A stretch of DNA of 64,000 nucleotides from Bacillus weihaiensis (GTDB taxonomy: Bacteria; Bacillota; Bacilli; Bacillales; Bacillaceae). The notes under the pieces were generated by a model. It made no database searches. It was not told the origin of the DNA and was given only the letters and a program-made list of their open reading frames with translations. The position numbers and the translations under genes are program-made. This document shows, in pieces, positions 41,630 to 46,140 of the stretch (within the stretch, counting starts at the first letter, position 1; each line of letters begins with the position of its first letter). The stretch spans positions 2,206,501 through 2,270,500 of the forward strand of contig NZ_CP016020.1 of assembly GCF_001889165.1 (NCBI RefSeq), in the 5' to 3' direction.

Positions 41630-41718
41630 GGCTCTGTTAAATTTTAACGTTGATAATTAGTTAAAATTAAGGAAACCCTTTAAAACCAGGTTTCCTTGCC
41701 ACTTTTATTAGCCGACCT

Positions 41719-42183
41719 TTACAATCTAATACCTTGTTCTTTTGATTGAATAAAATAGATTTCTTCATACTCTGATTTATAATAAGCAACATCAAATTTA
41801 TGAAGGTCAATTAAATCCTTAAAAGTATTAGGTAGCTTACAATTCCACTCTAACTCTTCAATCTTATGTGGGAAGTAGTTATCGTTTGGATTTGGTGTAT
41901 GAACATATACTGCGTCTGAAATAGGGTCTTGTTCGTGAATACAAATCCATGTTTGGTATGGCTTTTCAAATCCTTCAAGTTGCTTTAGTAACCTATTGTA
42001 TAAAGCTACATGAGCTTTGATATGCTCTCTTCTTATTTTCAAGTTATTTTCCCCAACTCCAAAAAAATCAAGGTGGGTATGCCAAAAATCAAACCATGAA
42101 TCATTATCGAGTTTTAAGTTACAAGTATTAACTTCCTCCCACAGATTGCGGAAGTATCTTTTCTTTCCACGAAGTTTTTTCAA
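41719..42183 (-). CDS. Passenger gene of the IS1595 element, unknown function
   Basis: 154 residues (MKKLRGKKRYFRNLWEEV start). I do not recognise the family. Features: a basic N terminus, aromatic-rich centre (NDSWFDFWHTHLDFFGVG), helix HIKAHVALYNRLLKQLEGFE, then WICIHEQDPISDAVYVHTP and an acidic end. No membrane segment or signal. The start is a TTG with a perfect AGGAGG six bases upstream, 28 bases after the transposase stop, so it would be translated from the transposase transcript. A longer frame beginning at 42246 is less likely. It is intact although the transposase is broken. Confidence 0.75.
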   Translation of the reverse strand: MKKLRGKKRYFRNLWEEVNTCNLKLDNDSWFDFWHTHLDFFGVGENNLKIRREHIKAHVALYNRLLKQLEGFEKPYQTWICIHEQDPISDAVYVHTPNPNDNYFPHKIEELEWNCKLPNTFKDLIDLHKFDVAYYKSEYEEIYFIQSKEQGIRL

Positions 42184-42211
42184 AATATACCTCCTAACAG
42201 CTAAAGAACCA

Positions 42212-43247
42212 TCAAATACTGAATCTTGATAAACGTAAACTATCATAAGTATCGATCATCTCAAATACAAATGATGATAATAGAAATTCCTTAATATTTT
42301 GTTTCGTGCTTTCATTACTTCGACTAGCTACAAACAAGAACCATGCAAGATAGTTGTCAAGATACTTTGTAGCCACACCTTTAAAACGGTCTATCCACTG
42401 TTTCATTCGTGAGTGTAGACCACTTACGTTTTGAATGTGGTACAAGCCCTTTATAACGTGCTTCCCATCGTTTGATTTAATGCGATAATGCTCTATTCCT
42501 TTTTCTTTCGCATACGTTTTATACGCTCTCCACGCATCAGTAACGAGTACGTTATTAGATGAAAGTTTAGAACCAATCATATTATCAACTTTAGTTTTCA
42601 CAACACGACCCATACAAGCGAATTTGGATACAGTGCTTTTGTTCGGTCTCTGGCAACAAGAACACAAACCTGTTCGTGGCTTATACCTCTAAGTTTAGAC
42701 TTCCCTCCACGCTTTCGAGGTTTACGTTCAGAAATACCACGTTTACCTTTTTCAGAGTATAGGAAATAGGTCTCGTCAATTTCAACGATACCTTCAAATT
42801 GCTCAAAATCCATTGTTTCAATGCACTTAACAGTTTGTGTCTCCAATAAGAAAGAGTAACCCAAGTAACCCCTATAATTTCCGCAGATTTTCGTAGGGAA
42901 TAGCCTTTGAACATACAATCAACAAATGTAATCCATTCGTCTCCTTTGCGAGTACGATATAAGACAGTATTAGTTGTATCTGTAAACGTCTTATTACAGC
43001 ATTTACAACGATAGCGTTGGCGACCATTGTATTTTCCGAAACGAACAATATGTTCTGATGAACAGTGAGGACATTCAAAACCCTCTTTGAAACGAGTTTC
43101 TCGCATTTCATTGATTAGGCGACCACCGACAGAGGAAGAAGGCTGAACGTAGCGTTTAACCCATTGATACACTTGTTCTTTTTGTGTAAGTGGTAGTTTA
43201 TCTATGTATCTTAATAGATTGCTGAATGCTTTGCTCAACCTTGTCAC
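42212..43247 (-). pseudogene. IS1595-family (ISXO2-like) transposase, two frameshifts
   Basis: Recognisable pieces lie in three frames. N-terminal part from 43247: helix region, zinc ribbon CPHCSSEHIVRFGKYNGR ... CKCC and the GYSLRKSAEIIGVTWVTLSYWRHK helix-turn-helix. Near 42830 the frame shifts to FEQFEGIVEIDETYF (first DDE Asp, ISXO2 type). Near 42640, in an A-rich spot, it shifts to SKFACMGRVV ... LVTDAWRAY (second Asp) ... HIQNVSGLHSRMKQWI. A whole protein would have about 340 residues. Unless programmed frameshifting occurs twice, it is inactive. Confidence 0.88.
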
Positions 43248-43334
43248 CTCCCGAATGTTTGTTCTTACCTAATTATACTAAGTTTTAGGGGAGGTATCAA
43301 ATATCAACATTTACCTTTAACAGAGCCTAAATTA

Positions 43335-43493: not shown

Positions 43494-43545
43494 TTGAATG
43501 TGTTGTTCTTATACAATTAAAGAAGCCCCCGTTTGTTCAATAAGC

Positions 43546-44106
43546 TTATTTTATAAAATCATTTATTAATTGCTCTGTTGTCAGTATTGTGGCAAATTCA
43601 TCGTGCAATGTAGCTAACGATATATTATGTATAGTTGCTGCATCATAATAGTTATCATTGTGGTCCTTCATACCGAAGGCTGCTGTTGCATCTGAAATTA
43701 GGTATGTAGCAAATCCTAAATTACCACTCATTCTTGTTGTTGTTGATACACAGTGAGGTGTAGTTAAACCAGTTATTACAACTGTTGCTATTCCATTTAC
43801 TTTTAAGAACTCTAATAAATTTGTACCAATAAAACTGCTATTTACTTTCTTCGTTATAATTACTTCTTTATCAATGGGTTCAACTATTTCTTTTATAGCA
43901 AACCCCTCATTCTTTGGATAAAATACAGAACTAGGATTATCAGAAGTGTGTTGTATGTGTATTACTGACCATCCTTTTTCTCTCCATAGTTGAAGTATCT
44001 TACTAATATTCTCTTCTGCATTTAAGTTATTTCGCTCTCCCCATTTTTCATCATCAAAAGCTTTTTGTACATCAACTATAATTAAAGCCAATTTATTTTC
44101 CGACAT
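43546..44106 (-). CDS. Isochorismatase-family cysteine hydrolase
   Basis: 186 residues. The family triad is visible: Asp in ALIIVDVQKAF, Lys in IITKKVNSSF and the nucleophile Cys in GLTTPHCVSTTTRM. Such enzymes include nicotinamidases and other amidases; the exact substrate cannot be told. Monocistronic, with GGGGG upstream of ATG. It lies between an IS element and a group II intron, in a stretch foreign to the syntenic block, which suggests it was gained. Confidence 0.88.
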   Translation of the reverse strand: MSENKLALIIVDVQKAFDDEKWGERNNLNAEENISKILQLWREKGWSVIHIQHTSDNPSSVFYPKNEGFAIKEIVEPIDKEVIITKKVNSSFIGTNLLEFLKVNGIATVVITGLTTPHCVSTTTRMSGNLGFATYLISDATAAFGMKDHNDNYYDAATIHNISLATLHDEFATILTTEQLINDFIK

Positions 44107-44258
44107 ATGATTTCCCCCTAAGTTGTTGAATTTCCTATTTATTACTATAATTTAAACCTAGAAATTACTTTTTGTACAATTGCTATTGTTATAGCTGTTT
44201 AACCAACCGTTAGCAATAGGTAAGCGTTTGAGATTATCTCCGGCTTTTCCCCTGCTCC

Positions 44259-44292
44259 ACACGGAACGTGCCAGTTTCCTAGCATTCCGCGT
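44259..44292 (-). ncRNA. Group II intron domain V
   Basis: 34 bases on the minus strand. ACGCGGAATGCTAG pairs with CTGGCA-CG-TTCCGTGT: an 8-bp lower stem, 2-base CG bulge on the 3' arm, 6-bp upper stem and GAAA tetraloop. This is the standard domain V geometry with a CGC catalytic triad. Confidence 0.85.
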
Positions 44293-44346
44293 TCCATCTA
44301 ACGAAGTTATATTAATTATAAGTTTCAAGTTACTCTTGGTTCTGGA

Positions 44347-46140
44347 TTATATAATTTCTAACTCACATTTTTCCCGATATTTATTGATTTTCTTAAGCAT
44401 CGGTTCTGTGATGCCCAGAATTTTCTTGAGTAAATCTATCTTAGCTGAATCTTTCATATGGATAAGTTTATGTACATCTTTGTGAAGGATGCGTAAGTTA
44501 TGAAACTTGTCACTTCCTTCCAGATGTATAGGAATATAGTGATGACAGTGCACATCTTGTGCTTGGAGGAATAATCCCGTGATTTCACAGATTCCTTTTT
44601 TCATACTGTATCGACTAATTCGGTTGTCCATATATTCGACACTCCGTGTCGGGATTTTCGATTCCAGTAATAAAGCTATTTCATGCTTAATATTCTTTTG
44701 CAAATTTTTAATAATCTGCTCTCGTCCCTCCATCGTGAATGGTGTTCGACTTTGTGTGAAGCTAATAACGTTTTTTGTCTGAACATTGGCGAGTGGGAAA
44801 AGGTGAATACCAGCAATTTCAAATGTCTTGAACCCCAAACTATAAAATTTCTTATAAGTTGGTGGTGCATTCGTTGGATGTGAATATTTCCCGATAGGCT
44901 TAAGACGATTGTACATCATTGCACCTATTTCATAAGCAAGACGCGAGAACGCTAAATTAACGTGTGTAGCTCTGCAGAAGTAATTATGTAACCCTAAGAC
45001 AAAACTATTAAAACGCAAAGCATTTTCAGCTGTTGGTGAAGAGCGAAGTATTTCAATCCGTTTCTTTGTTTCAGCTTTTATCTTCTGTACTTTCTCGGCT
45101 CGAACAAAAGTGTGAGCCACTCTTTTTTTACCTTTACGATTTGCGAGTATGGTAAATCCAAGAAAAGCAGATGCATGCTTACGTAGATTAATAATCTTCG
45201 ATTTTTCTGGTGATATATCAAGTTTTAGACGTTCTTTTAGGAATAGCTTTACTGCATGATACCATTTTTCAGCTGTTTTCCAATCTCGACAAAGTATTTT
45301 GAAGTCATCTGCGTAACGTACCAGATAACCTTCTTTTAGATGAGTGCGCTTTTTCGCGAGAAGTTCACCTTCCCTAGACTTGAATGATTTATGAAGGGGG
45401 AATAGTTCCCATTGATTCGCCACCCATTGGTCTAGCTCATTTAAAACAATGTTCGATAGCAGCGGCGATAACAACCCACCTTGCGGAGAGCCTTTAGTAG
45501 GGATACCCTCGCCATCAATCTCGGCTTTTAACATTTTAGCAATACATGCGAGGACTTGTCTGTCTCGAATGCCTATACTCCATAGTTGTTTAATTAGTAG
45601 TGTGTGATTGATATTGTCAAAGAATCCCTTAATATCAATGTCTACAACGTAATGAAGTTTTGAATGATTAACTAAAAATTGTATTCTTGCCATTGCATGG
45701 TGGGTAGACCGTAGAGGTCTAAATCCGTAACTGTGGTTGTAAAAGTGAGCTTCCGCGATTGGCTCTAGCACTTGTTTAAAACACTGTTGAATAATTCTAT
45801 CGAGGATGCATGGAATGCCTAATGGTCGCATTTTGCCATTATCTTTTTCTATCAGTTTCCGTCTTACTTTCTTTGGACGATAATTCTTGAGCTGTCTCTG
45901 TACTTCTTCTATTAATTCATTCTCGGTTCGTTTCTCGATATCTAATATGGTTTTCCCATCTGTACCGGGAGTCTTCGACCCTTTATTTGACTTAATTGTT
46001 CGATAAGCTAATAAAATATTATTCCTCGACGTGATAATGTCGTATAGATAATGGAACGTTTCTTTATTTTTTGCCCGTTGATGTAAGTCTGTAAAGGTGT
46101 CAGTCATATCATAATAATCCCAGTATCGTAGAGCTTGCAC
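44347..46140 (-). CDS. ltrA: Group II intron reverse transcriptase/maturase (with HNH)
   Basis: 597 residues. RT domains with GTDGKTI, SYGFRPLRSTHHAM, VVDIDIKGFFDNINH, GSPQGGLLSPLLSN and the active site RYADDFKILC; a maturase X domain follows; the C terminus has an HNH endonuclease (CEITGLFLQAQDVHCHHYIP ... NLRILHKDVHKLIH). All key residues are present and there is no frameshift, so the intron may be mobile. It starts with GTG at 46140 (or ATG at 46107) inside the intron RNA. Length and HNH fit LtrA-like maturases rather than the shorter class C proteins. Confidence 0.95.
   Translation of the reverse strand: MQALRYWDYYDMTDTFTDLHQRAKNKETFHYLYDIITSRNNILLAYRTIKSNKGSKTPGTDGKTILDIEKRTENELIEEVQRQLKNYRPKKVRRKLIEKDNGKMRPLGIPCILDRIIQQCFKQVLEPIAEAHFYNHSYGFRPLRSTHHAMARIQFLVNHSKLHYVVDIDIKGFFDNINHTLLIKQLWSIGIRDRQVLACIAKMLKAEIDGEGIPTKGSPQGGLLSPLLSNIVLNELDQWVANQWELFPLHKSFKSREGELLAKKRTHLKEGYLVRYADDFKILCRDWKTAEKWYHAVKLFLKERLKLDISPEKSKIINLRKHASAFLGFTILANRKGKKRVAHTFVRAEKVQKIKAETKKRIEILRSSPTAENALRFNSFVLGLHNYFCRATHVNLAFSRLAYEIGAMMYNRLKPIGKYSHPTNAPPTYKKFYSLGFKTFEIAGIHLFPLANVQTKNVISFTQSRTPFTMEGREQIIKNLQKNIKHEIALLLESKIPTRSVEYMDNRISRYSMKKGICEITGLFLQAQDVHCHHYIPIHLEGSDKFHNLRILHKDVHKLIHMKDSAKIDLLKKILGITEPMLKKINKYREKCELEII

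Follow-up and report, generated by a model that had tools for sequence, protein, structure and literature searches.

An immobile IS1595-family transporter element of Bacillus weihaiensis and its passenger gene of an undescribed family

Positions 41630 to 43327 of the window (the whole stretch of 64,000 nucleotides of Bacillus weihaiensis contig NZ_CP016020.1 that was analyzed) raise the question of what an open gene of 154 codons is doing inside an insertion sequence (IS) with a broken transposase. The IS1595 family and its passenger genes were reportedly treated by Siguier, Gagnevin and Chandler in 2009 (cited in PMC7986276); the family, the ends and the idea of passenger genes are common to that work and to the element considered here. 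An earlier note, made from the DNA letters alone, had held that passenger genes are known in this family, and the literature agrees; the name transporter IS, or tIS, is in use for IS1595 elements that carry one passenger (PMC7986276, PMC9330008, PMC5704250). The reading that we prefer, with a probability of roughly 0.75, is that the locus is an immobile copy of a tIS with one transposase and one variable slot, the passenger of which belongs to an undescribed, maintained family that enters elements repeatedly and outlives the transposase. The variability of the slot, both among copies in the same genome and among relatives, and the existence of cassette-like relatives go beyond the earlier note. 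No description was found in the open literature of the near one-to-one diversity of passengers across the Bacillaceae, of the passenger family, of its retention following transposase loss, or of the link to bracketed cassettes, and these are regarded as new.

The element, its ends and its transposase

The segment is an IS1595-family element that is complete yet dead, and as a tIS it is of a known kind (Table 1). The earlier note had placed a member of this family at the same position, in agreement with the ends and the transposase profile matches. The element is oriented on the minus strand, with the left tip (GGCTCTGTTAAAGG...) at 43327 and the right tip at 41630; both tips begin GGCTCTGTTAAA, the short inverted repeats thus starting with GGC as is typical of the family. 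The target duplication of 8 bases claimed previously was recovered as repeats at both flanks, their identity being 7/8 rather than full; 8-bp duplications are identical at 8/8 positions in two further copies of the same genome and in many relatives. The right end of approximately 26 bp is conserved across elements of the subgroup, and the hairpin preceding it is variable; a terminator scan made no call at this hairpin.

Profile searches matched separate pieces of the transposase to PF12762, PF12760, Zn_ribbon_IS1595 and NF033547, consistent with the DDE transposase with zinc ribbon and ISXO2-like domain that typifies the family. Comparison with an intact relative of 342 codons (L038) located frame changes at element positions 476-515 and 688-694, and the two frameshifts reported earlier were thereby confirmed. 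The passenger was likewise found as first described, open over 154 codons, preceded by AGGAGG and beginning 28 bases past the transposase stop. It lies within the inverted repeats and is unrelated to transposition, homologues existing without any transposase; when the slot was shuffled 300 times, no open reading frame (ORF) of this length arose. The transposase would act on the ends and so move everything between them. A transcript started at the TTGATA-17-TATAAT promoter inside the left end would have the passenger as its second gene, and the passenger is probably expressed from this promoter. The promoter-like sequence matches at 11 of 12 positions, promoter matches overall being not above shuffles; the same arrangement recurs in other element copies and stays in place in those with deleted transposases.

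The closest known systems are tISCpe8 of Clostridium perfringens, which carries lnuP, and MTnSag1 (tISSag10) of Streptococcus agalactiae, which carries lnu(C), both tISs of the IS1595 family (PMC5704250). The window element resembles them in combining an IS1595 DDE transposase with one passenger, inverted repeats, 8-bp duplications and AT-rich targets in the Bacillota (PMC5704250). The two differ from it in providing lincosamide resistance and an oriT mobilized by Tn916, whereas the window element has a dead transposase and an undescribed passenger. Elsewhere in the window, a group II intron was noted on the minus strand at 44210-46140, with an RF00029 match at 44210-44294 and a reverse-transcriptase/maturase ORF of 597 codons with an HNH-like end.

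Table 1. Features of the window element (window positions), related copies in the B. weihaiensis genome, and trimethoprim-resistance genes bracketed by both forms of the repeat
Feature	Location	Strand	Remarks
Target repeat, right-end side, TAGATTAA	41622..41629		7/8 identical to TAAATTAA
Right terminal inverted repeat, TATCAACGTTAAAATTTAACAGAGCC on minus strand, right tip GGCTCTGTTAAATTTTAACGTTGATA	41630..41655	-	Kept in 19 other right ends of the subgroup
Hairpin GGAAACC...GGTTTCC between passenger and right end	41671..41695	-	Terminator-like, weak T tract
Passenger gene, 154 codons	41719..42183	-	TTG start 42183, stop 41719-41721; no described family
Ribosome binding site AGGAGG	42190..42195	-	6 nt upstream of passenger TTG
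IS1595 transposase gene, two frameshifts	42212..43247	-	Profile matches and comparison with L038
Second transposase frame change	42634..42640	-	Versus L038
First transposase frame change	42813..42852	-	Versus L038
Promoter-like TTGATA-17-TATAAT	43272..43300	-	Just inside left end, pointing into transposase and passenger
Left terminal inverted repeat, GGCTCTGTTAAAGGTAAATGTTGATA	43302..43327	-	
Target repeat, left-end side, TAAATTAA	43328..43335		7/8 identical to TAGATTAA
Own-genome copy	155 kb (155545-156262)		Passenger 93 codons; most of transposase deleted, perfect 8-bp duplications
Own-genome copy	202 kb (202882-203543)		Passenger 105 codons, membrane protein; most of transposase deleted, perfect 8-bp duplications
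Own-genome copy	2852 kb		Passenger 112 codons, membrane protein
Own-genome copy	3851 kb		Passenger 162 codons, membrane protein
Own-genome copy	3875 kb		Passenger 101 codons
dfrG, bracketed by both forms	L188:1914-2526 (NZ_CP014378 plasmid)		
dfrD, bracketed by both forms	L145:994-1660 (LR961983 plasmid)		

The passenger slot in sister elements

A search of the B. weihaiensis genome with the DNA of the element identified five further related copies (Table 1), all of them with broken transposases; the slot of each holds an open passenger of its own. Transposase searches covered 21 genomes from the genus and 80 from the family, and 23 different passengers were found among related Bacillaceae within one transposase subgroup. 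Their Pfam assignments included AadA_C, RibD_C, Acetyltransf_3 (GNAT), Methyltransf_11, DUF4275, DUF4304, DUF6557, GyrI-like and DUF3784, and several more belong to no family; the AadA-like nucleotidyltransferase was present in several element copies with target duplications of 8/8, and one passenger matched Cass2, an integron-associated effector-binding family. Only one pair among the 23 is weakly alike (25% over 72 residues, E 0.004). Each of 20 slots had an ORF at or above the 99th percentile of shuffles. Another subgroup, more distantly related and with GGCTGTTTTCG as its ends, has lipoprotein and DinB genes on the opposite strand between these ends, and also carries a CAAX protease gene for which the boundaries are less certain. 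Across the Bacillaceae, almost every lineage has its own small accessory gene in the slot, and some of these genes are of resistance type.

The passenger family and its maintenance

The earlier note had failed to recognize the passenger, and no described family was matched in profile and structure databases either: sequence searches of Pfam, NCBIfam, PHROGs and the PDB returned nothing significant for the window protein, and its AlphaFold model (pLDDT 83, built from 19 sequences) gave no clear fold match, with best Foldseek E-values of 0.07 (PDB) and 0.038 (viral) and a best VIA Z of 3.5. Approximately 20 relatives were located on genome contigs of Bacillaceae, Paenibacillaceae, Caryophanaceae, Sporolactobacillus and Flavobacteriia, those of the Flavobacteriia being without the N-terminal KKFRGKRRYFRN stretch; no other carrier was found among the 21 genomes of the genus. 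Fifteen alignment positions are invariant, including W30, F31, H37, D39, R51, Q77, W79, D90, N98 and P99. As part of the best explanation, the family is viewed as one of undescribed, mobile, selectively maintained and soluble proteins of about 154 residues. A protein of 242 residues encoded on the minus strand at L144:910-1638 shares the N-terminal MKKFRGKRRYF with the passenger, the rest being different, and this stretch may be a movable module.

With regard to function, a conserved polar core (H35, H37, D39, R51, D90, H95 and N98) and the resistance-like company in the slot suggest, tentatively, that the protein could provide conditional self-protection through detoxification or immunity, a proposal more apt to be wrong than right and backed by no known fold or family match. 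Still less likely would be a role as a defence or orphan immunity gene directed against phage or polymorphic toxins. The protein is small and single-domain with a patchy distribution, a homologue of 62% identity lies directly 3' of an ADP-ribosylglycohydrolase gene in a viral or mobile contig (L068:3999-5465), and the best signal within the family was a sub-threshold SMI1_KNR4 match in two members (best E 0.021). Against this, a PADLOC search of 19 members gave no meaningful match (best E 0.051, in one of the 19), no toxin gene was recognized beside the listed homologues, and the fold was not matched.

Whatever its function, the passenger might be a neutral hitchhiker, namely an ordinary neighbouring gene that was caught on a single occasion when transposition was imprecise and has yet to decay. 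The decay of the window transposase is recent, and with two disabling changes in approximately 1,030 bp of transposase, an absence of any in the 462 bp of passenger would be expected by chance about 40% of the time; moreover, several copies of the gene elsewhere have decayed (L023, L029, L134, L111 and L116). By itself, therefore, the broken transposase beside an open passenger, which the earlier note had read as a hint of selection, is weak evidence, and the case rests on the homologues. These are not decaying frames alone, the majority being open. Pairwise dN/dS values against the window passenger ranged from 0.12, with the closest relative (L010), to 0.30 across many pairs, and purifying selection on the family is therefore concluded; the signal is that of the relatives, the branch of the window copy itself being too short by three-point arithmetic to show selection there.

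Further evidence against hitchhiking was provided by the Bacillus pumilus group, where a homologue is situated between yqgN and yqgO (names assigned from sequences). This locus was matched in 17 genomes of the genus to which the group belongs (L110-L126), 15 of them readable; the gene was full-length and open in 8/17, internally deleted in 2/17 and absent, leaving an empty site, in 5/17. In L013, of the same group, the left end of the element is still visible before the gene (score 50, with shuffles reaching no more than 38), and the 3' end of the transposase is retained with its junction to the passenger as in the window. This scar indicates that the element arrived and its transposase was lost while the passenger stayed, and eight species of the group have kept the gene intact long after that loss. 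With sites that are intact, deleted or empty, this locus offers a natural series by which loss of the passenger could be dated.

A second complete element, the DNA of which matches that of the window element over its whole length (74%), was found in another family of the order (L134). Its transposase is 79% identical to that of the window with the reading frame shifted, and its passenger is 54-56% identical with one in-frame stop; both known complete IS-borne copies of the passenger are hence in dead elements. The recurrence of the junction in L013 and of a homologue in a second complete element also speaks against an IS that happened to insert next to a housekeeping gene. Phylogenetically, the two IS-borne passengers fall in different subclades among solo copies, a 98/93 clade excluding that of L134; separate capture rests on this tree position and not on rates because dS between the two is near saturation. 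Most homologues have no transposase nearby, and among the solo copies, remnants of IS ends scored above shuffles in L013 (left end) and in Sporolactobacillus L023 and L143, which keep a decayed right end, and in none of the others. Together, the tree position and these decayed right ends indicate that the passenger gene moves in and out of IS1595 elements. Two separate IS-borne lineages, along with long ORFs in all of the sister slots, make the hitchhiker explanation improbable. That the passenger instead serves the element as an accessory or regulatory protein of transposition, as its position adjoining the transposase and the junction conserved between the window and L013 might suggest, is very improbable indeed, since closely related transposases accompany unrelated passengers in sister elements and the transposase is absent near most homologues.

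A repeat bracketing passengers and other single genes

If the preferred reading of a maintained gene in a variable slot is followed, the source of the passengers has to be considered. In an Enterococcus faecalis plasmid, an IS1595 transposase of 57% identity is followed by dfrD, which thus occupies the passenger slot and has a short repeat on both sides. The repeat is approximately 36 bp and exists in two forms, CAG (GGGCAG) before genes and TGC (GGGTGC) after them; where units abut, the two forms are about 40-63 bp apart. It also brackets the cargo of an element in Pontibacillus (target duplication ATTCGAAA, 8/8) and, in L087, the GNAT passenger. It occurs 3' of the passenger in the own-genome copy at 202 kb, and was found next to five of the solo homologues of the window passenger (L018, with copies on both sides, L131, L132, L136 and L138). 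Within the genus, the pattern was matched 66 times versus 11 for the reversed pattern. The window element had no cassette-type site above chance, nor did most of the IS slots scored. A weak, sub-threshold copy was noted on the minus strand at 43514-43545 of the window, just past the stop of an isochorismatase-like gene (43546-44106) right outside the element.

The repeat forms an array on contig C23 of one relative, genome G001 (30000-109300, L179-L182), where 44 good sites, nearly all on one strand, were counted in approximately 80 kb; a position matrix gave 46 matches versus none in shuffles, and 0/44 sites fell inside an ORF of at least 90 codons compared to 62% of random positions. The array brackets mostly single accessory genes, judged by eye to be of the nucleotidyltransferase, DinB, NUDIX and GrpB types. 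Among plasmids, the TGC form was present in 146 records, 89 of them from Enterococcus, and dfrG is bracketed by both forms in a Staphylococcus aureus plasmid; the site is also carried by dfrG or a dihydrofolate reductase gene in three phage records, and the exact consensus was not found in viral contigs. Rfam gave no match to the sites, and nothing relevant was retrieved from the open literature for the repeat sequence (titles and abstracts) or for dfrD together with IS1595.

These observations can be accommodated by a cassette system of the Bacillota itself, as yet undescribed, with site CTTATTGAACTAAAGGGCAGNTTAGTTGAA on the 5' side of single genes and site CTTCTTCAACTAACGGGTGCGTTAGTTGAA on their 3' side, one-strand arrays, and export on IS1595 tISs and plasmids, in which the passenger family would be cargo and dfrD and dfrG would be bracketed alike; we give this proposal somewhat less than an even chance. 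Integron cassettes are similar in being single small accessory genes in one orientation, with short repeated sites, arranged in arrays, and one passenger matches Cass2. They differ in that the array contig of G001 has no tyrosine recombinase (PF00589), and hence no linked integrase as expected of an integron, and in that the sites are of about 36 bp and two types, with arms for which covariation was not above shuffles and a conserved hairpin is thus not supported. As no linked integrase, arm covariation or recognizable site in the window element was found, the cassette system is put forward as a possible reading and not as shown for the window.

The passengers may be drawn from a pool of cassette-like genes, as suggested by the sites around some homologues and some passengers, the window copy not among them. 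Entry into the slot could proceed by homologous exchange between copies through their shared transposase and ends, by use of a different right end that lies downstream of an adjacent gene, or by insertion of a bracketed cassette. Such elements resemble small carriers that collect genes from a shared pool and disseminate them. If tISs do sample a pool of single genes, they would allow accessory and resistance genes to travel between Bacillaceae of the soil and onward to Gram-positive pathogens. The repeat common to the passenger homologues and to dfrG and dfrD makes the origin and capture of these resistance genes directly testable, and it serves as a search handle for further cargo genes, most of them undescribed. 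Among the homologues in Flavobacteriia (L024-L028), the gene was observed between short repeats, GTTGGCAACAAG...GTTGCCAACA, that resemble cassette boundaries, and in Faecalibacter (L025) it is flanked on both sides by long direct repeats.
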